Below are positions 20,996 to 37,030 of a stretch of DNA of 64,000 nucleotides, one piece after another. Below the pieces are notes generated by a model. It made no database searches. It was not told where the DNA came from and worked only from the letters and a program-made list of their open reading frames with translations. Source of the stretch: Lachnospiraceae bacterium (lineage in GTDB: Bacteria > Bacillota_A > Clostridia > Lachnospirales > Lachnospiraceae); contig JAGZJD010000002.1 in the NCBI GenBank assembly GCA_018365895.1, positions 31,369 to 95,368 of the forward strand, read 5' to 3'. The translations under genes and the position numbers were made by a program. Position 1 is the stretch's first letter. Each line of letters starts with the position of its first letter.

Positions 20996-21029
20996 AAAAA
21001 ACCGCCCCAGGCTATTCGCCTGAGACGGT
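20996..21029 (-). terminator. T-box regulated terminator (Trp leader)
   Basis: The GC-rich stem ACCGTCTCAGGC/GCCTGGGGCGGT with a short loop GAATA is followed by six T on the minus strand. Its 5' side competes with the T-box antiterminator. Confidence 0.85.
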
Positions 21030-21250
21030 AATAAAATCTTATTATCGCGGTACCACTCAACTTGACAATCTGTCCACTTTCTCATGTACTAACATACATT
21101 CCTAATTGGTAACGGGTTCGGTTCCCGTCAGCGTCTACTTAAATGAAATCTCATCTGTTCAAGCTGCCCTCGAAAGTCCATTCAGTCATCTGCTCTATAC
21201 AGCAATCCCACCATCTGCTGCTCTCTGTAATATTACCTGATCACTTACTC
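20996..21250 (-). ncRNA. T-box riboswitch, specifier UGG (Trp)
   Basis: A leader on the minus strand with all landmarks: stem I with AGAGAG and GGTGGGATTGC distal parts, the specifier region GAATGGAC with UGG at 21180-21178, the T-box proper GAGTGGTACCGCG around 21057-21045, and the intrinsic terminator at 20996-21029. UGG is the tryptophan codon, so uncharged tRNA-Trp should allow transcription of the ABC importer downstream. Confidence 0.92.
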
Positions 21251-21280
21251 CTCTTTCTCAACGGTTTTTCTATGTTCTAC

Positions 21281-26030: not shown

Positions 26031-27113
26031 CTATCGAGCACTTTTTACTTCTGTCATTGCATCAATCATATAACCAATTCCCTCTCCATCAAAAGAATTT
26101 AACATATAAAGTCTGTTTTTCAAATCTTCTGACAGAACAATCATTGGGCTATTGGCAAGATTTTCAGGAAGATACTCCACTGCTGCCTGATTAAAGCATA
26201 CATAAGGAAACGCTTCTATTAATTTTGCGCTTACCTCTGGTCTTAACAAATAATTTAAAAACAATTCTGCTTCTTTTACGTGTTTAGACCCTTCCAGAAT
26301 TACAAACGTATCTACTGACAAGGATGCCTGTTCTTCTTCAAGTGCAAGCTGTATATCGCTGTTTTCCTCCATTGCCTGCATAATATTTCCAGAATACATA
26401 TATGCAACCGTTGTTTCTCCTTTAATCATAGAATCTCGTACATCTGCCGGTAAGGAATATGCTTTTATTTGCTCATTCATATCTAAAAGCCATTCTTTCG
26501 CAAGCTGAATATCTTCAAAACTTGTGCTTGTTGGATCTTTCCCACTTGCTGCAAGAGCCTGACAAATATTCCCCTGTGCGTCATCCGAGATAAGAATATC
26601 TCCCGCTAACGCTGGATTTTTCAAATCTTCAAAAGTATCTGCTTTCAAACCTTTTTCAGCAAGTCGAGAAGTATTTGCAACCCATGTACACACCGTTCCC
26701 ATATATGGGATTGTATACTTCCCTTCCGGATCATAAGACATGCTGCGATAATCAGGATCGATATTTTCAATATTTGGAATATTATCATAATTCAATGGTT
26801 GAATCAAATTATTTTCGACCATAGCATCAATATAAAAATTAGAAGGAACCGCAATATCATATTCTCCGTTATTTCCAGCAAGAAGCTTTGCAAGCATTTC
26901 ATCATTAGATTCAAATGTTGTTTCAATAACTTTAATGCCGTATTCCTCTTCAAATCCATCCAACACTTCCTGACTCATATACTCTGACCAATTGTAAAGA
27001 TAAATTTCTTTCGCATATCCATCAGCTGTTTTCTCTTCTTCTTTTTCTCCACATCCTGCAATAAATGTACTGCAAAGCATTAAAGCAGAAGCAGTCAAAA
27101 TTAATTTTTTCAT
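26031..27113 (-). CDS. potD: Polyamine ABC transporter substrate-binding lipoprotein
   Basis: Binds spermidine/putrescine outside the membrane for the PotABC importer. It has 360 residues with a lipoprotein signal (MKKLILTASALML..., lipobox IAGC). The PotD features are IYLYNWSEYMSQEVLDGFEEEYG at the mature N-terminus (position of the binding-site Trp and Tyr), NFYIDAMVENNLIQPLNYDN and the C-terminal FLNYLLRPEVSA. It is last in the operon, 3 bp after the amidohydrolase gene. Confidence 0.92.
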   Translation of the reverse strand: MKKLILTASALMLCSTFIAGCGEKEEEKTADGYAKEIYLYNWSEYMSQEVLDGFEEEYGIKVIETTFESNDEMLAKLLAGNNGEYDIAVPSNFYIDAMVENNLIQPLNYDNIPNIENIDPDYRSMSYDPEGKYTIPYMGTVCTWVANTSRLAEKGLKADTFEDLKNPALAGDILISDDAQGNICQALAASGKDPTSTSFEDIQLAKEWLLDMNEQIKAYSLPADVRDSMIKGETTVAYMYSGNIMQAMEENSDIQLALEEEQASLSVDTFVILEGSKHVKEAELFLNYLLRPEVSAKLIEAFPYVCFNQAAVEYLPENLANSPMIVLSEDLKNRLYMLNSFDGEGIGYMIDAMTEVKSAR

Positions 27114-27116
27114 TCC

Positions 27117-28766
27117 TTATTCTCCTTCATTAAAATACACACAAACTCCATCAATAAATGTTTTTTCAATCTGACACATAAAAAGATTTTCCGGATTTAA
27201 ACAATACGGATCTTTATCTATAAATGCGAAGTCTGCCTTCTTTCCAACTTCTATTGAACCAATCAGATGTTCCAAACGAAGCGAATATGCACCACCTATC
27301 GTTAAAATGCATAATGCTGTTGTTAAATCCAGACATTCCTTCTCATTCAGGCAATTCTTTGTCTGTGGTTCCGCACGATTTACCATAAAATGCAGTGAAT
27401 CCATTGAAGTCGGCGGCATCGTGATAGGAAAATCCGATGCCTGCCCCATCGGGATATTTCTGTCTGCTAAACTCTTCATCGGATATTGTTTTTCTGCCCT
27501 TTCTTTTCCAATGAAGGGAAGTTCCACCTGTTCAAAATAAAGCGGATTTTTAGAATGCCAATACGGATTTGTAACAGCTACAATCTGATGCTTTGACATT
27601 TCATTTATCTGACATGGCTTTGCAATCTGTAAATGCGTAAATACATTTCGAAACTCTATATCTTTTTCTTCTTCTTTTCTTTTATTCTGTACTTTTATAT
27701 ATGCTTTCAGTGCCATATCAAGCGCTCCATCTCCTATCACATGAGCATGCAGATCATAACCATGCCTCAGTGCATAAAGAGCTGTTTCTTCTAACCATTC
27801 TTGAGAACATGTTGGTTTTCCTTTCTCCTCTGGTTGATCTGTATACGGTTCCGAAAGATACGCTGTATGACATTCGATTACACCATCCACAAAAAATTTA
27901 GCCGAAGACAATTTTACTTTCTGACAGTCTGAAAGAAGCTGAGAAATCTGCTCCATATTTTGAAACGCCCTTTTCACGTCATCATTTGCCTCAATGCTAT
28001 AACCAAGACGGGACATCAGCTTAAGTGTATGTTCTTTTTCTAAAATTCTCCAGCCTTCTGCCCGTATAATATAATCTTTTTTTGCATCATACATCGGTTC
28101 ATACACAGCTGTTACTCCATTTTTCAGAGCAATCTCCTGATAATATGCAATTGCCTGTGCATACTCCTCAGCTGTCGTTTCCGGAATAATATGTGAGGTA
28201 AAACTTCCTGCACTCTCTTTCAACCACCCTGTAGCCCTTCCATCCAGATATCTCACAATTTCTCCTGCTTCCGGATTCGGTGTATCGTTAGTAATACCGG
28301 TAAGTTCCAACGCCGCACTATTTAGCCATCTGGAATGATGATCTGAAGAAATCATCACAATTGGAATATCTTTTGTAATACAATCCAGAAGTTCTGCCGT
28401 AGGACCGATTTTTCCAAATGCTCCATTATCATATCCGGAACCGGTAATTACTTTCACATTTGGATGGTTCTTCCAATATTCTCTAATCTCCTCCAAATAC
28501 ACATGGTAATCATTACAAAGCGGTGGCAGCATAACTCCCTTTGTAAATTCTGTTGCACAGCTTACATGGGCGTGACTTTCCACAATCCCCGGAATGACAA
28601 GACCTTTCGCCTTTTCTATCGCTGTTTTCTTTCCAATATATCCTTTTATTTCCTCTTCTGTTCCTACTGCAAGAAATTTTCCATCCTTAACAGCTACAGC
28701 TTGTGCAAACAGACATTTTTTATCTGCCGTAAAAATCTTTCCTTTTATAACTAAATCTGCTGTCAA
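27117..28766 (-). CDS. YtcJ-type amidohydrolase inside the pot operon
   Basis: A metal-dependent amidohydrolase (Amidohydro_3) of 549 residues. The metal motif H-x-H is in ESHAHVSCATEF near residue 65; further ligands are in LHAHVIGDGALDMAL and the Asp in ASDFPITMPP. It has the TIM-barrel strands and the family ending ADFAFIDKDPYCLNPENL. It lies between potC and potD with gaps of 14 and 3 bp, so it is co-transcribed with the polyamine importer. The position suggests it removes an acyl group from an imported amine or cleaves an amide such as a carbamoyl- or acyl-polyamine (inference). No signal peptide is seen, so it should act in the cytoplasm. Confidence 0.88.
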   Translation of the reverse strand: MTADLVIKGKIFTADKKCLFAQAVAVKDGKFLAVGTEEEIKGYIGKKTAIEKAKGLVIPGIVESHAHVSCATEFTKGVMLPPLCNDYHVYLEEIREYWKNHPNVKVITGSGYDNGAFGKIGPTAELLDCITKDIPIVMISSDHHSRWLNSAALELTGITNDTPNPEAGEIVRYLDGRATGWLKESAGSFTSHIIPETTAEEYAQAIAYYQEIALKNGVTAVYEPMYDAKKDYIIRAEGWRILEKEHTLKLMSRLGYSIEANDDVKRAFQNMEQISQLLSDCQKVKLSSAKFFVDGVIECHTAYLSEPYTDQPEEKGKPTCSQEWLEETALYALRHGYDLHAHVIGDGALDMALKAYIKVQNKRKEEEKDIEFRNVFTHLQIAKPCQINEMSKHQIVAVTNPYWHSKNPLYFEQVELPFIGKERAEKQYPMKSLADRNIPMGQASDFPITMPPTSMDSLHFMVNRAEPQTKNCLNEKECLDLTTALCILTIGGAYSLRLEHLIGSIEVGKKADFAFIDKDPYCLNPENLFMCQIEKTFIDGVCVYFNEGE

Positions 28767-28780
28767 TTTCTTTACTCCTA

Positions 28781-29578
28781 TCAGTTATCTCGAATACGTT
28801 TTGTCCATTGCCTCATGATAAACATATATATCAGATAAAACAGTATGCATCCTGTTATCATTAATGTAGAAACAACGTACACATTTGTAGAAATTTTTCC
28901 TCTTACCATTCCGTAAACTTTTACTGGAAAGGTGATCTGTCCTGCTCCTGATACAAAGTAACTGATAATTACATCATCAATAGACAATGTAACAGACATA
29001 AATGCTCCGGAAAGAATCCCTGGTGCGAGAAGCGGCAATGTCACTCTCCGTAATGTACTCCATTGATTAGAACCAAGATCCATAGCCGCTTCTTCAAGTG
29101 ATGAATCAAAATCTGCAATTCTTGCTCTCAGTGTGATAATAACAAACGGAAGACAAAACGTCACATGAGAAAACACAAGTGTTGCAAAGCCCAATTTCAT
29201 TCCCATTTTTGTAAATGCAGCAAGTGAAGCAAGTCCAATAACTAACTCCGGAATGACAAGCGGAATATATAATAACCCATTAATGTATTTTTTTAGTTTA
29301 AATTCATAACGATAAGTACCTATTGTCGCAAATATCCCAAGCATACACGAAATGACCGTAGATACAACTGCAAGCTTGATTGATAACCATAAGTTGCTAA
29401 ATAATGGATCGCCTCCAAACACTTCTTTATACCAATGCAGTGTAAATCCCTGAAAGGTTAAGTTATCCCCACTTCTATTGAAAGAATACATAATAATAAC
29501 AAAAATTGGCATGTAAAGAAATAAATAAACTAATGACATAAATAAAATAAGACCAAATTCCTTTTTCTTATGTTTCAT
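28781..29578 (-). CDS. potC: Polyamine ABC transporter permease PotC
   Basis: One of the two membrane subunits of the PotABCD importer. It has 265 residues with six helices, and the EAA coupling loop reads EEAAMDLGSNQWSTLRRVTLP. ATG 29578 (MKHKKKEFG) is chosen because GGAGGT stands immediately upstream; a start 24 bp earlier would overlap potB and has no such site. Ends 15 bp before the amidohydrolase. Confidence 0.94.
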   Translation of the reverse strand: MKHKKKEFGLILFMSLVYLFLYMPIFVIIMYSFNRSGDNLTFQGFTLHWYKEVFGGDPLFSNLWLSIKLAVVSTVISCMLGIFATIGTYRYEFKLKKYINGLLYIPLVIPELVIGLASLAAFTKMGMKLGFATLVFSHVTFCLPFVIITLRARIADFDSSLEEAAMDLGSNQWSTLRRVTLPLLAPGILSGAFMSVTLSIDDVIISYFVSGAGQITFPVKVYGMVRGKISTNVYVVSTLMITGCILFYLIYMFIMRQWTKRIRDN

Positions 29579-29588
29579 ATGTACCTCC

Positions 29589-30449
29589 TTACGCCAAATC
29601 ATCTAACGAGCCAACTTTAGAATAGGCTTTTAGAACAATTAATGTGAATACAATAAGTAATACAGAAAACACTGCTCCCAGAGGCCAGTTTCTTGCTACA
29701 AGAAACTGATTCTGAATCAGATTTCCCAAATATACAGATGATCCGCCTCCCATAACATCTGCAACGAAAAAGGCTCCCAGAGATGGAATGAACACTTGAA
29801 TCGTTCCTGCAAAAATACCAGGTAACGTCTGTGGAATAATCACTCTAAAAAAAGTTTTTACCTTTCCCACTCCCAGATCATACGATGCTTCTACAATCTG
29901 AGGATTCAGTTTCGAAATATTGGTATGTAACGGCAAAACCATAAACGGAAAAAAACAATAAACCATTCCAAAAAGTACTGCTCCGTCAGTATACATCATT
30001 TCAATTGGTTTTGATATCCATCCAAATTCCATTAACACTGTATTTACAAGACCGCTGTCTCGAAGGATATTGCTCCACCCATTAAGACGAATCAAACCAT
30101 TTATCCAAAACGGAAGCATGAGCAGCAGCATAAGCATACCACGTATATTTCTATTTATTTTACTAAGGGCATACGCAAATGGATAGGCAATTACAAGACA
30201 GATGACTGACGTCTGAAAGGCCATAACGATACTTTTCCATATGACTCCCATGTATAAGGAGGAAAAGATACTTTTATAATTATTCAATGTAAGCTTTCCT
30301 GTCACCCCGCCATAGAGTCCCTTCGTGCAAAAACTGATGTAAATCACATAAATCATCGGCACAAAAACAAAAAGTAACAACCAGATTGCCGTAGGGCTGA
30401 CCATTGCAATAATTTGCCAGTAATTTTTCTTTCTCCTTTTATTTTTCAT
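29589..30449 (-). CDS. potB: Polyamine ABC transporter permease PotB
   Basis: The second membrane subunit of the importer. It has 286 residues with six helices, N-terminal KNKRRKKNYWQ and the coupling loop EASYDLGVGKVKTFFRVIIPQ. Its start overlaps the potA end by 11 bp, so translation is probably coupled; potC follows after 10 bp. Confidence 0.94.
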   Translation of the reverse strand: MKNKRRKKNYWQIIAMVSPTAIWLLLFVFVPMIYVIYISFCTKGLYGGVTGKLTLNNYKSIFSSLYMGVIWKSIVMAFQTSVICLVIAYPFAYALSKINRNIRGMLMLLLMLPFWINGLIRLNGWSNILRDSGLVNTVLMEFGWISKPIEMMYTDGAVLFGMVYCFFPFMVLPLHTNISKLNPQIVEASYDLGVGKVKTFFRVIIPQTLPGIFAGTIQVFIPSLGAFFVADVMGGGSSVYLGNLIQNQFLVARNWPLGAVFSVLLIVFTLIVLKAYSKVGSLDDLA

Positions 30450-31584
30450 TGACTTCGAGGCCCCCTTGACTATTTAAAAGTCCAAACTCAATTGCATCAT
30501 AGACTGTATCTTCTGTCGTATGCATAATAACTGCTTTATCCACATCCCAGGATATATTCACAAGAGAGCCTATCTCTAACGGCGTTTCCATCGGATGGGT
30601 ATTCACTTTCACAACATCTCCATTTGGCAGATGAATAATCGTCCGCATCACACTTCCTGCATAAATCTGATCTGCTACAAATCCTTTTAATGTAAATCCT
30701 TCTACGATCTCTTTTGTAATACGCACATTTTCAGGTCGTACACAAATATAAACGATTTCTTCATTTTTAAAGCCTGTACCATTAGCTTTTACATGACCAT
30801 TTTCCATCATCAGTGTAAGCGTTTCTTCTTCATTTGCTACAACACTCGCTTCAAAAATGTTCGATTCCCCGATAAAATCTGCAACAAATTTCGTTTTTGG
30901 CTGCTCATAAATTTCTTTTGGTGTTCCAATCTGCTCCAAATTTCCTTTATTCATAACAACAATCCTATCACTCATCGTAAGCGCCTCTTCTTGGTCGTGT
31001 GTTACAAATACAAAGGTAATTCCTAAACTTTTCTGCAATGCTTTTAATTCCAACTGCATTGTTTGACGAAGTTTCAGGTCTAATGCTGCCAATGGCTCAT
31101 CCAATAAAAGAATCTTCGGTTCATTTGCCAGTGCTCTTGCAATTGCAACGCGTTGTTTTTGCCCACCGGACAATTGATTCGGCATGCGTCCCTCCATCTT
31201 ACCCAACTGCACCATTTCTAATAATTTTGTGACACGCTCTTTAATCTCTTTTTTAGATATTTTTTTCTCTACAAGACTGTATGACACATTTTTAAATATA
31301 TTCATATGCGGAAATAGCGCATAATTCTGAAAAACAGTATTTACATTTCGCTTATAAGGAGGTAATGAAGTCACATCCTGTTCTTCAATCAGCACTTGTC
31401 CTGTTGTTGCTTCTTCAAAGCCGGCAATAATTCTTAATGTTGTCGTTTTTCCACATCCAGACGGACCCAGTAACGTAACAAACTCACCTTCATATATATC
31501 CAGATCAGTTGATTTTAAAACTTGTCCTTCTTCGAATTCTTTCGTTACGCCTCGTAATTTCAAGATAACCTTTTTTTCTTTCAT
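30439..31584 (-). CDS. potA: Polyamine ABC transporter ATPase PotA
   Basis: Drives polyamine uptake. It has 381 residues: Walker A GPSGCGKTT near residue 39, signature LSGGQKQR, Walker B ILLLDEPLAALD, H-loop VTHDQEEA, then a C-terminal TOBE/OB regulatory region (ICVRPENVRITKE) from about residue 235. It is the first transporter gene, 19 bp after the P-II gene. Confidence 0.95.
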   Translation of the reverse strand: MKEKKVILKLRGVTKEFEEGQVLKSTDLDIYEGEFVTLLGPSGCGKTTTLRIIAGFEEATTGQVLIEEQDVTSLPPYKRNVNTVFQNYALFPHMNIFKNVSYSLVEKKISKKEIKERVTKLLEMVQLGKMEGRMPNQLSGGQKQRVAIARALANEPKILLLDEPLAALDLKLRQTMQLELKALQKSLGITFVFVTHDQEEALTMSDRIVVMNKGNLEQIGTPKEIYEQPKTKFVADFIGESNIFEASVVANEEETLTLMMENGHVKANGTGFKNEEIVYICVRPENVRITKEIVEGFTLKGFVADQIYAGSVMRTIIHLPNGDVVKVNTHPMETPLEIGSLVNISWDVDKAVIMHTTEDTVYDAIEFGLLNSQGGLEVNEK

Positions 31585-31603: not shown

Positions 31604-31942
31604 TTAAAGTACATTTTTGCCATGTTCACCTGTACGGATGCGAACAACGTCCTCAATATTCGAAATAAAAATCTTACCATCACCTACTGTATTGGTAGAA
31701 AGCTTTGCCACAATTTCTGCAAGAATATCATCAAGATCTTCGTCCCATACTACTGTCATTACATAAAGTCTTGGTAAAAGATTAATTTCAATTCCTAATT
31801 TCTGGAATTCCTCACTATTGCCTTTTTGCTGACCAGCACCCATAGCAGACATAACTGTAAAACCTGAATATTCATATCTTGTAAGAATTGTTTTTAATGG
31901 TTCTAATTTTTCTGGGCGAATAATAAGTTCAATTTTTTTCAT
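31604..31942 (-). CDS. P-II family signalling protein, variant T-loop
   Basis: Trimeric sensor protein that binds ATP/ADP and 2-oxoglutarate and controls targets, usually nitrogen transporters or enzymes. It has 112 residues. The core is clear: KKIELIIRPEKLEPLK, the Walker-like GDGKIFI and the C-terminal VVRIRTGE. The T-loop reads GQQKGNSEEFQKLG and position 51, which is the uridylylated Tyr in enteric GlnB, is Ile. So modification by uridylylation is not expected. It heads the pot operon instead of the usual amtB or glnA. An effect on PotABC is inferred only from position. Confidence 0.93.
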   Translation of the reverse strand: MKKIELIIRPEKLEPLKTILTRYEYSGFTVMSAMGAGQQKGNSEEFQKLGIEINLLPRLYVMTVVWDEDLDDILAEIVAKLSTNTVGDGKIFISNIEDVVRIRTGEHGKNVL

Positions 31943-31960
31943 GGTACATTTCTCCTTCTA

Positions 31961-32007
31961 ATCAAAAAATAAAAAGCAAGTAATGTTAAAAAACACATTA
32001 CTTGCTT
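31961..32007 (-). terminator. Intrinsic terminator in front of the P-II gene
   Basis: A perfect 12-bp stem (AAGCAAGTAATG on both strands, 31974-31985 with 31996-32007) and a ten-base loop is followed on the minus strand by TTTTATTTTTT. It lies between the operon promoter and the P-II start codon with no complete gene in between, so it is a leader attenuator. Confidence 0.88.
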
Positions 32008-32249
32008 AGAACACATAAATACATACAGATTAGAATCTATAGATTTTCAGGACAAGCCCTCTTACCAATCTTATTATTGACCGTTTTACAAGTTGTGTGT
32101 TTCTTAAACACTGGTTTATAGTAACCAACTTACAAAATTTGAGCTTCTAACTCAATCAATAACGCAACACGACGTGCTGCAAATCGGCATTTGACCTGGC
32201 TGTCCGTATGGCCATATTGTTTTAAATAGTGGTCGATAAAATTTAATTT
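32008..32249 (-). ncRNA. Structured leader RNA of the P-II/pot operon, class not recognised
   Basis: About 240 nt between promoter and terminator. A 12-bp stem (UUUUGUAAGUUG from 32137-32126 with CAACUUGUAAAA from 32095-32084) encloses two hairpins, GGUU-ACUAUA-AACC (32126-32113) and GUGUUU-AAG-AAACAC (32111-32097), forming a three-way junction. A 5' hairpin GCAGCAC/GUGUUGC lies near 32181-32165, and another, GUCAAU/AUUGGU, lies just 3' of the junction. ACUUGU in the 3' arm of the long stem is complementary to GCAAGU in the terminator, so the two could exclude each other. It fits no riboswitch or T-box that I recognise. The rest of this 400-bp gap holds nothing else. Confidence 0.6.
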
Positions 32250-32255
32250 AGTACA

Positions 32256-32284
32256 TATATATCACATCTAAAAACCCTTGTCAA
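32256..32284 (-). promoter_or_regulatory. Promoter of the P-II/pot leader
   Basis: TTGACA (32284-32279), 17-bp spacer, TATATA (32261-32256). The transcript would start near 32249. Confidence 0.75.
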
Positions 32285-32347
32285 TATTTTTTATTTTATT
32301 TTACCTCCTTTTTTCATAATATAATCTCTTTCTAGTTCTAGTTTTTT

Positions 32348-33748
32348 TTAATCCTGCTGCAGTTCTTCCTGCTCTTTTACCGGTACATATGTCCCATCAT
32401 CTGTTACATAACTCTTATTATCATAACACTGCGTTCTTGTCGGCAGATTCCGTTTCTCTAATTTGTAATTAATCAACATCTCGACAATATAGTAAATTAC
32501 TGCAAATGTCGGAACACCCATTACCATTCCTATAAATCCAAAAAGTCCTCCGCCAAGCAAGATAGAAAAAATAACCCAAAAAGCTGACAAACCTGTAGAA
32601 TCTCCAAGAATTTTCGGTCCGATCACATTTCCATCTAGCTGCTGCAGCAATAAAATAAAAATAGCAAAATACAGTCCTTTTAACGGATCTGCTAACCCAA
32701 TCAAAATAATACAAGGAATTGCTCCGATATATGGTCCAAAAAATGGGATCACATTTGTTACACCTACAATCACACTGACAAGCAATGCATATGGCATTTT
32801 CAGAATTGCTGTTCCTATGTAACAAAGTACCCCTATGATCATAGAGTCAATTACCTTTCCGATCATGAAGCCGCCAAAAATCTGATTACTTTTTGTAACA
32901 ATATGGAGTGTCAGATTCGCATGCGGAGGAGTCATTAATGCGTAAACCGCTTTTTTTGCCTGCGCGTTAAATTTTTCTTTGCTAAATAATACATATACAG
33001 AAACAATAATTCCAATCAAAACATTCATCACTTCATTCACAATGTTAATAACTCCTGATGTTAGATTGCTCATAAGGATATTTGTCTGACTTAGAAGATC
33101 TGTCCTCAGCCAATTCTGCAGCGCTTCTGTTCCCTCCCGCAAAGCTTGATCAAAAATTTTACCTGTTGTAGAATCATCAATCTGAATTTCATTCAGCCAT
33201 GCAAGCCCTTCATTCAACTGATCTGGAAGTGTGTAAACCATATCACGGATACTCGTATAAAGCTCCGGAATTACCATGTTGCAAAGGGTTGCTACTATCG
33301 TAAGACCAATACAGATTGAAGCAATAATTCCTGTTGTTCTGCCAATCTTCTCAATTGTTTTTTGTTTCTTTGTATAAATCTTTAAAAGAGGCTGCAACAA
33401 TTTTTCAATTTGCTTACATAATGGATTCAATAAATAGGCAATGACCAACCCATAAATGATCGGTTTCGATACTTCCACAATCTTACCAATCACACTGGAC
33501 AGATTACTTACTCTTAACAATGCAAAATAGAACAAAATCGCAGCTGCAATTACAAGAAAACTCGTCATACCTCTGCTAAACTGCTCCCGTATTTTGGACG
33601 GACCTTTCCCTTTCAGATTCGGGCGCTTCTCATAATATGCTTTTTCACGCTCTTCTCCTCCGTCATTTATTTTTCTCTCTGCAGCAGCGGACTGCTGCTC
33701 TTTTTCCAACTCTTCTTGATTTTTACTTGATTTTTCCATATATTTCAC
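32348..33748 (-). CDS. AI-2E family transporter
   Basis: A membrane protein of the AI-2 exporter/permease superfamily (TqsA, YdiK, YhhT); in other members it carries the AI-2 signal or other small molecules or ions. It has 466 residues: a charged N-terminal region of about 65 residues, then eight helices. Typical parts are YGLVIAYLLNPLCKQIE, VVGVTNVIPFFGPYIGAIP and DGNVIGPKILGDSTGLSAFWV. GTG 33748 with AGAGGA just upstream is the best start; ATG three codons in is the alternative. The substrate is not predictable. Confidence 0.88.
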   Translation of the reverse strand: MKYMEKSSKNQEELEKEQQSAAAERKINDGGEEREKAYYEKRPNLKGKGPSKIREQFSRGMTSFLVIAAAILFYFALLRVSNLSSVIGKIVEVSKPIIYGLVIAYLLNPLCKQIEKLLQPLLKIYTKKQKTIEKIGRTTGIIASICIGLTIVATLCNMVIPELYTSIRDMVYTLPDQLNEGLAWLNEIQIDDSTTGKIFDQALREGTEALQNWLRTDLLSQTNILMSNLTSGVINIVNEVMNVLIGIIVSVYVLFSKEKFNAQAKKAVYALMTPPHANLTLHIVTKSNQIFGGFMIGKVIDSMIIGVLCYIGTAILKMPYALLVSVIVGVTNVIPFFGPYIGAIPCIILIGLADPLKGLYFAIFILLLQQLDGNVIGPKILGDSTGLSAFWVIFSILLGGGLFGFIGMVMGVPTFAVIYYIVEMLINYKLEKRNLPTRTQCYDNKSYVTDDGTYVPVKEQEELQQD

Positions 33749-36254: not shown

Positions 36255-36761
36255 TTATTCCTCCACTTTTTCTTTCTTATTATCTTTTTCATCTATCTGA
36301 GGTTCTGCTGCTGTCTCCAACTTATCCGATTCCTCAGTTTCTTCCGGTTCCATGCATGAAATAAACTTCTCATGGTATACCGGATAATTCTTCTTCAGAG
36401 AGATCGGTTTCCCAAGTTCTGTCAGGAAACAGTGCGAAGTCTCTCCTTTACAGTGAATCATATTTGTTTTCTTGTTCACAACCTGATAGCTGATCACAAG
36501 CTTGATTCCATTATATTCTTTGATCGTCAGGTCAATTCTGGCTGTATCGCCAAATTTCAACATCCGAAGATATTTTGCACTGGCTTCCAGCACCGGACAA
36601 AGAATTCCTTTCTTTTCCAGTTCTTCGTAAGGAAGACCAATCTGTCTCATAAAATCTGTTCTCGCCTCTTCAAACCAGCGAATATAATTTGAATGATGCA
36701 CCACCTTCATCTGATCTGTCTCGTAATACTGTATCTGATGTTCATACGGACGAAGCTGCAT
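36255..36761 (-). CDS. Acyl-CoA thioesterase (hot-dog fold, YbgC/FadM type)
   Basis: A 168-residue single hot-dog protein that would hydrolyse a (hydroxy- or short-chain) acyl-CoA. The signature is YETDQMKVVHHSNYIRWFEEAR (residues about 14-35), with Asp in the place of the catalytic residue and the His-Ser-Asn turn. About 30 charged residues at the C-terminus are extra and likely disordered. It is the first gene after the Thr T-box and 3 bp before thrS, so it is made under threonine starvation along with thrS; no functional link is obvious. Confidence 0.88.
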   Translation of the reverse strand: MQLRPYEHQIQYYETDQMKVVHHSNYIRWFEEARTDFMRQIGLPYEELEKKGILCPVLEASAKYLRMLKFGDTARIDLTIKEYNGIKLVISYQVVNKKTNMIHCKGETSHCFLTELGKPISLKKNYPVYHEKFISCMEPEETEESDKLETAAEPQIDEKDNKKEKVEE

Positions 36762-36787: not shown

Positions 36788-37030
36788 AAAAAATCCCCTG
36801 CAATGAATCACTTCACTGCAAGGGACGAGTTGATATGGTAACTCGCGGTTCCACCCCGCTTGTACCAGTCCTCTGACTGGAACCACTTATTCTGATGATA
36901 ACGGAATCACCGTGCAGTTTTGCTGCCGCTCAGAGGTAGTCTTCAGATGCTTCTGTGATAAAGAACTTCCAGCCACCGGTTCTTCTCTCTGGATCTTTTC
37001 ACATCTTACTCGTCTCGTCAACGCTTTTCA
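36788..37030 (-). ncRNA. T-box riboswitch (Thr)
   Basis: Minus-strand leader with the T-box proper GGTGGAACCGCGAGT (about 36858-36841), the terminator TCCCTTGCAGTGAA/TTCATTGCAGGGGA followed by TTTTTT (36825-36788) and a stem I with a specifier region GACTACCTCTGAG (about 36945). The Thr codons ACT or ACC lie there; which is read cannot be fixed by eye (TAC, Tyr, also overlaps). Assignment to Thr rests on thrS downstream. Confidence 0.88.

Follow-up and report, generated by a model that had tools for sequence, protein, structure and literature searches.

A divergent member of a candidate polyamine riboswitch class in the leader of a P-II and polyamine transporter operon of a Lachnospiraceae bacterium

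Among the described leaders of polyamine genes, a close system is the spermidine riboswitch (Salvail 2023, PMC10853860), a variant of the SAM-I aptamer with a consensus derived from 13 representatives, in which spermidine triggers a terminator ahead of polyamine genes, ldcC and speE among them. The odc1 motif (Brewer 2021, PMC8632094) is likewise a structured leader of polyamine-synthesis genes, but it occurs in Alphaproteobacteria, consists of a hairpin with a pseudoknot and carries the authors' label uORF-25-1. The pneumococcal RNA F59 is known as a clone of 82 nt from the interval that separates SP0915 and SP0916 (PMC3395615) and as a conserved putative small RNA (sRNA; PMC12323649), and the parts of both papers at hand assign no function to it. 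Here we describe the leader of a P-II gene, which is followed by polyamine transporter genes, on the minus strand at 31961-32284 of a window of 64,000 nt (the whole stretch of DNA analysed) from a Lachnospiraceae bacterium (contig JAGZJD010000002.1, positions 31,369 to 95,368).

As judged from sequence comparison, this leader is probably a divergent member of a widespread RNA class of many gut and soil bacteria that would attenuate genes of polyamine synthesis and uptake as an OFF switch, presumably as a polyamine riboswitch. Its membership in the class is close to certain, and attenuation of polyamine genes in cis is very likely. The comparison of loci given below establishes the class as such and the genes that accompany it, together with the terminators, the alternative pairing and most stems. 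The proposed logic is the same as that of the spermidine riboswitch, from which the element differs in that the loci scanned are without a SAM-I match and in its number of at least 118 loci compared to 13 representatives. We are slightly inclined to regard it as a second polyamine riboswitch class, structurally unrelated and apparently far commoner: an RNA of about 210 nt with an optional SpF59 module that would shut down both the synthesis of spermidine (decarboxylases, SpeD, SpeE, carboxynorspermidine enzymes) and its uptake by PotABCD across the Bacillota, and that would include pneumococcal F59/srn235. The window would then hold a pared-down form, by which P-II and the transporter come under one polyamine switch. 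In the literature searched, which comprised few subscription papers or preprints and no supplements and included the parts at hand of PMC11477304, PMC12335538 and PMC2864571, no report was found of the Rfam family RF02440 as a regulator of polyamine genes or of the whole class, and polyamine terms do not occur in the part at hand of PMC11109978.

The features of the leader are listed in the order of transcription, where R1 denotes a covariance model of 126 positions and 35 pairs from P6 to P9, built from 41 of 60 diverse sequences with the window excluded.

32279..32284, minus strand: -35 box TTGACA (sequence)
32256..32261, minus strand: -10-like TATATA, spacer of 17 nt from the -35 box (sequence)
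32184..32235, minus strand: RF02440 (SpF59, 'ldcC RNA') module, Rfam match of 47.7 bits
32234-32231/32196-32193, minus strand: P3 GACC/GGUC, part of the RF02440 module
32213-32211/32200-32198, minus strand: P4 GGC/GCC, within the RF02440 module, around CAUACGGACA
32164..32180, minus strand: P5 hairpin GCAGCAC/GUGUUGC (sequence and alignment)
32032..32162, minus strand: conserved core, P6 to P9 (R1, 85.5 bits, E 2e-14)
32074..32162, minus strand: P6, UUAUUGAU (32162-32155) with GUCAAUAA (32081-32074) (alignment, R1)
32141..32153, minus strand: P7 GAGU/GCUC (alignment, R1)
32084..32137, minus strand: P8, stem of the three-way junction, 32137-32127/32094-32084 (sequence, R1)
32126-32123/32116-32113, minus strand: P8a (sequence, R1)
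32111-32106/32102-32097, minus strand: P8b (sequence, R1)
32033..32070, minus strand: P9 equivalent, GAUU (32070-32067) and AUUC (32036-32033) (R1)
32088..32093, minus strand: ACUUGU, antiterminator strand, also in the P8 3' strand (sequence, relatives)
32000..32005, minus strand: GCAAGU, partner of ACUUGU in the terminator 5' arm (sequence, relatives)
31974..32007, minus strand: intrinsic terminator stem-loop, followed by TTTATTTTTT (terminator scan)

Transcription is expected to start near 32249 on the minus strand. Of the consensus promoter reported in the preliminary description only the -35 box deserves this name, because TATATA agrees with the -10 box at 4 of 6 positions; due to its demand for a T at position 6, the promoter scan did not list this promoter. 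The other parts of the structured leader with attenuator described there are all present on the minus strand. A 12-bp stem (UUUUGUAAGUUG, 32137-32126, with CAACUUGUAAAA, 32095-32084; two of the pairs are G-U) encloses the hairpins GUU../..AAC and GUGUUU/AAACAC in a three-way junction, and in front of the P-II start codon at 31942 an intrinsic terminator with a 13-bp stem (32007-31995/31986-31974) is followed by a T-rich tail. On the two strands of 31800-32500, three terminator-like sites were found compared to 0.3 per shuffle. The leader 31961-32250 folds on the minus strand with -74.2 kcal/mol, while its shuffles reach -55.2 (standard deviation, sd, 4.7; z -4.04; 0 of 200 as stable); for the plus strand of 31961-32284, z is -2.26 with 2 of 100 shuffles.

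Contrary to the designation as unclassified, 52 nt of the leader (32235-32184) belong to RF02440, the score exceeding the gathering score of 37.2. RF02440, which in Rfam is a 54-nt sRNA gene of Streptococcus (SpF59_sRNA, 'ldcC RNA'), is the sole Rfam family at E<=1 across 31900-32350; over the whole window, two T-boxes and a tRNA were matched elsewhere. The observation that landmarks of the T-box and SAM classes are lacking agrees with this search, in which neither family matched at E<=1 over 31900-32350, and both a T-box leader and a SAM-I variant aptamer were rejected on these grounds. Ten element loci were scanned and all of them match RF02440; a raiA RNA, considered due to the length and conservation of the element, is absent from the Rfam matches in these loci. 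Among 14 well-known control genomes, RF02440 was matched in Lactococcus lactis only. The conserved element exceeds the 54-nt family about fourfold in length. In case of L148, L151, L158, L159, L161, and L197, three of which belonged to the training set of R1, the model scores 113-135 bits in spite of the missing RF02440 module, and no Rfam family attains its gathering score. All six loci precede an OKR_DC_1 or AdoMet_dc gene. On account of these members RF02440 is regarded as an optional module, and the core as not represented in Rfam. The two parts adjoin in L243, where an RF02440 match (1411-1482) lies next to an R1 match (1501-1641) with an Orn/Lys/Arg decarboxylase gene downstream. The origin of the Rfam synonym 'ldcC RNA' was not found in the literature searched, and the name suggests that someone noticed a link to lysine decarboxylase earlier.

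Two further observations concern the module. In L243 (1409-3141, from a 2.1-Mb Bacilli genome) P4 reads GCC/GGC for GGC/GCC, a compensatory change in a module that is otherwise nearly invariant. Except for L197, all module-less loci have the sequence GUAUGG ahead of P6, at a distance of 31-64 nt and close to where transcription presumably starts; it was found in none of 116 module-bearing loci over a similar upstream stretch, and it resembles UACGGA of the module, as if displaced outside.

The exact core pattern GGCCATACGGACAGCCNGGTC was found at no fewer than 118 loci in genome contigs (L001-L118) and at none in viral contigs; its invariance in these loci is by construction, as it served as the search pattern, and all counts out of 118 refer to the matches listed. 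Hosts are Paenibacillus, Bacillus, Neobacillus, Kurthia, Acidaminococcus, Phascolarctobacterium, Faecalibacterium, Ruminococcus, Blautia, Lachnotalea, and many metagenome bins of Clostridia. Bins labelled Spirochaetes (L049) and Synergistaceae (L079) are also included, of which the taxon labels may be binning errors; R1 scores 49 bits on L079, but L049 is matched only weakly and by a part of the model, at 23.7 bits. Conservation exceeds the Rfam model, extending from about 60 nt upstream to about 170 nt downstream of the core pattern. By this comparison, the RF02440 part of the leader is a fragment of a Bacillota RNA class of about 210 nt that is not modelled as a whole in Rfam. R1 is present in 23 of 398 genomes from the phylum of a Lachnospiraceae and in 24 of 299 from the class of a Bacillus, two sets that overlap and in which stricter filters drop weak matches. 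With the window leader as BLAST query, 91 of 397 Lachnospiraceae genomes were matched at E<=0.001, a few of them via short stretches only.

The genes behind the element are mostly of polyamine type. In 92 of the 118 loci the nearest open reading frame (ORF) kept downstream is codirectional and has at least 150 aa, and it was taken as the first gene. Pfam assigns 30 of these to OKR_DC_1 (Orn/Lys/Arg decarboxylase), 30 to AdoMet_dc, 19 to Sacchrp_dh_NADP (saccharopine-dehydrogenase-like), and 12 to ABC_tran (with TOBE_2 in 11), which amounts to 91 of 92, provided that no protein is counted twice. The second genes (n=73) comprise 26 OKR_DC_1, 21 spermidine synthase, 14 Orn_DAP_Arg_deC, 10 BPD_transp_1 permease, one ABC, and one AdoMet_dc gene, and no regulator family is among the Pfam assignments of these first and second genes. 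In case of the other 26 loci, 18 have a same-strand ORF of at least 60 aa with its start no more than 900 nt away. Twelve of these ORFs are of polyamine type and six (65-107 aa) match nothing; the remaining eight loci have no such ORF or no room for it. In total, an Orn/Lys/Arg decarboxylase, SpeD, carboxynorspermidine synthase or ABC-transporter ATPase gene lies downstream at 103 of the 118 loci. A further set of ORFs is entirely of polyamine type (41 of 41; 45 with L137, a twin of L136, the repeats L143 and L150, and the wrong-strand ORF L156, which were left out), but it overlaps the pattern loci, at least L191 and L200 being repeats. NCBIfam cut-offs are exceeded by speE of L006, potA of L003, adenosylmethionine decarboxylase of L151, and nspC of L014, the last of which follows a carboxynorspermidine synthase with 418 bits (below the cut-off of 800). 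The window fits into this picture with potABCD downstream of P-II as the first gene.

R1 matches the window over 131 nt (32162-32032) and the full length of the model, without a second match at E<=1 within the 64 kb. In the R1 alignment 94.3% of the cells are paired compared to 93.0% after shuffling, and the covariation score is 0.091 compared to 0.074; neither value is reached by any of 500 shuffles, and with slid partners pairing drops to 32-50%. RNAalifold predicts 35 pairs for 88 loci and the window, 12 of them with changes on both sides, in an alignment of which the search-pattern columns are invariant by construction. Both ends of the element are connected by P1/P2. For the 93 of 118 loci in which the anchor could be placed (25 were left out), the duplex energy of matched ends is -17.6, and that of permuted ends is -14.3 (sd 0.27; 0 of 5000); among the 70 non-Bacilli loci, too, 0 of 5000 permutations reach the matched value.

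The possible switch between ACUUGU and GCAAGU, raised in the preliminary description, gains support from the relatives, in which the alternative of junction strand and terminator recurs. Of 96 loci including the window, with a codirectional ORF of at least 100 aa within 700 nt, 78 have an intrinsic terminator according to a relaxed finder. Pairing was assessed for the 72 loci in which the P8 strand could be recognised and the terminator dG was at most -15. CARGY, a motif picked after inspection of the terminator arms, occurs in 54 of the 72 5' arms; 200 shuffled-arm sets average 4.1 and reach 12 at most. The terminator arm pairs with the P8 3' strand of its own element at -12.25, with permuted partners at -10.61 (sd 0.26; 0 of 2000), and with a shuffled strand at -6.2; for the 53 non-Bacilli the values are -11.5 and -9.3 (0 of 5000). 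Among non-Bacilli with CAGACUUG, 14 of 17 show a continuation of the UUG/CUG type after CARG and none GAUG, while of the 12 with AUCAACUUG four show GAUG and none UUG/CUG. Since terminator arm and P8 3' strand can pair, a folded core would free the terminator and an opened P8 would block it. In the window these two strands are complementary as well, though their duplex is weak, and the last pair between ACUUGU (32093-32088) and GCAAGU (32005-32000) is U-G. As long as the terminator 3' arm is still to be made, core (-51.8 kcal/mol) and antiterminator (-51.9 kcal/mol) are of equal weight; once the RNA is complete, the state with core and terminator is lower by 7.4 kcal/mol (-67.5 versus -60.1).

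For the nascent RNA two courses are proposed. Either the core from P3 to P8 folds and keeps ACUUGU in the junction stem, so that the terminator would be free to form, or ACUUGU binds GCAAGU in the terminator 5' arm, in which case the terminator would be blocked and RNA polymerase would reach P-II and potABCD. The core would be stabilised by a polyamine, for which spermidine or one of its close relatives is the most likely candidate, and the RNA would therefore be an OFF switch. That the RNA itself would sense the polyamine is the best reading of the comparative data; direct binding, the nature of the ligand and the sign of regulation we infer, as we do for a working switch in the divergent window copy, which is probable.

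The same antiterminator/terminator pair would suit any trigger, and an attenuator in cis that is run by a protein or another factor (an RNA-binding antiterminator, the ribosome or a general termination factor) instead of a metabolite might impose a lighter requirement, which would allow for a window copy without part of the conserved architecture. We regard this as unlikely, as the near-invariant positions extend over about 210 nt and beyond simple stems, which resembles an aptamer more than a protein site, and the tallies of downstream genes, to which this search was confined, offer no regulator. It is improbable that the element is a trans-acting sRNA with the terminator as its end, as the name SpF59/srn235 implies and as the entries of F59 as an 82-nt sRNA (PMC3395615) and, in 2025, as a conserved putative sRNA (PMC12323649) have it in the parts at hand. 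Any attenuator yields terminated transcripts that resemble sRNAs, and a free sRNA requires neither the placement in front of polyamine genes, on the same strand at the 103 loci counted above, nor terminator arms that fit the junction strand of their own element, as observed outside the Bacilli. Control by translation of a leader peptide is very improbable and was rejected, because start codon and ribosome-binding site are not conserved: an AUG before CCG is found in 50 of 118 loci and in the window (AAAUGCCG), but 68 loci are without it, and a Shine-Dalgarno-like motif plus start codon occurs in only 8 of 118 elements.

Several results weigh against the interpretation as a polyamine riboswitch, for the class or for the window copy. 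The strict finder detects terminators in only 40 of 96 loci and the relaxed finder none in 18, and CARGY was chosen with the arms in view. Both permutation tests fail within the Bacilli, where the sequences are alike: neither the pairing of arm and P8 strand (19 loci; -14.26 versus -14.15, 1752 of 5000) nor P1/P2 (23 loci; 4049 of 5000) discriminates. The count of extra pair types in the R1 alignment is matched by 25 of 500 shuffles, two positions of P8b are paired in only 44% of the cells, and P6 and P9 hardly vary, for which reason covariation is uninformative for these two stems. In the window, the arms form no P2 and have their best duplex elsewhere, one pair of P9 (GAGU/ACUC in the 41 model members) is broken, and the antiterminator duplex of -7.8 kcal/mol ranks 65th of 72. 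With unconstrained minima of -57.4 kcal/mol (partial RNA) and -73.2 (full RNA), the energy model prefers other folds to both proposed states; in the fold of the full RNA the terminator is retained and GGACAGCC is paired to GGCUUGUCC. This pairing between core (32198-32205) and 32050-32058 is an observation from the minimum-energy fold of the window. Finally, none of 30 loci of P-II relatives, which were covered with flanks of up to about 1.5 kb, has an R1 match at E<=1.

The losses in P1/P2, P9 and the antiterminator would also be expected of a decaying relic in a class that otherwise still switches, and when the leader is compared with Lachnospiraceae genomes by BLAST, none of the 30 best matches reaches beyond query position 192 of 290. 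We consider such decay rather doubtful, as the 131-nt core still scores 85.5 bits and the terminator with its partner strand is retained. Furthermore, the 3' part of the element, which is AAUAAGAGURGUAAAAGU in most other members, has the form AAUAAUAAGAUUGGUAAGAG in the window, and a similar form was found, by the pattern used, in one other fetched element, L006, which precedes a decarboxylase gene and reaches 88.3 bits with R1.

If the interpretation as a polyamine riboswitch holds, polyamine feedback in many gut bacteria would run via RNA, and the window would tie this feedback to P-II and transport. The class is a strong and directly testable polyamine-riboswitch candidate in many gut Clostridia, Paenibacillus, and Bacillus relatives. 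The pneumococcal sRNA would be relabelled as the leader of a polyamine gene. The Rfam entry, as the comparison shows, describes an optional piece and misses the core.

The operon behind the leader, all on the minus strand, runs in the order P-II, potA, potB, potC, amidohydrolase, potD.

31958-31951, minus strand: ribosome-binding site GAAGGAGA of the P-II gene (sequence)
31604..31942, minus strand: P-II family protein, 112 aa, ATG at 31942 (PF00543)
30439..31584, minus strand: PotA-type ATP-binding protein, 381 aa (TIGR01187 above cut-off)
29589..30449, minus strand: PotB-type permease (profile match, below equivalog cut-off)
28781..29602, minus strand: PotC-type permease (profile match, below equivalog cut-off)
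27117..28766, minus strand: amidohydrolase between potC and potD (PF07969)
26031..27113, minus strand: PotD-type substrate-binding protein (profile match, below equivalog cut-off)

The 30 loci of P-II relatives derive from a class search (20) and a family search (10; 9 of 250 genomes matched at E<=1e-30). The genome with the nearest P-II of the class search (G732) belongs to a family in which 146 genomes gave only five short stray matches. That the RNA naturally belongs to P-II was rejected due to the lack of R1 matches in these 30 loci. All 11 P-II genes examined (L210-L219, L162) are located directly upstream of a PotA-like ABC-transporter ATPase gene, with TOBE_2 in 8 of 10 such ATPases at the cut-off used and potA of L218 above the NCBIfam cut-off; taken together with the absence of R1, this means that the gene pair exists without the RNA. 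A control of polyamine uptake by P-II is possible on the basis of this arrangement. Of the nitrogen or polyamine signal suggested before, the link to polyamines is borne out by the neighbouring genes, but a nitrogen signal is not favoured, because the class accompanies polyamine genes and the 30 P-II loci are without the core.

Pairs of a P-II and an ABC-ATPase gene recur in the Lachnospiraceae and in one other family. The amidohydrolase gene lies within the pot operon. T-boxes are in general terminator/antiterminator attenuators, and two of them on the minus strand of the window (36818-37030, 95.7 bits; 21018-21270, 109 bits) share this type with the leader, which itself has no T-box match. 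The T-box at 36818-37030 is located upstream of a thioesterase-like gene (36255-36761) and thrS. ThrS relatives place the host in the Lachnospiraceae: the ThrS of the window is 100% identical to that of Faecalicatena sp. Marseille-Q4148 and 99% to that of Coprococcus sp. AF21-14LB, which are named relatives.
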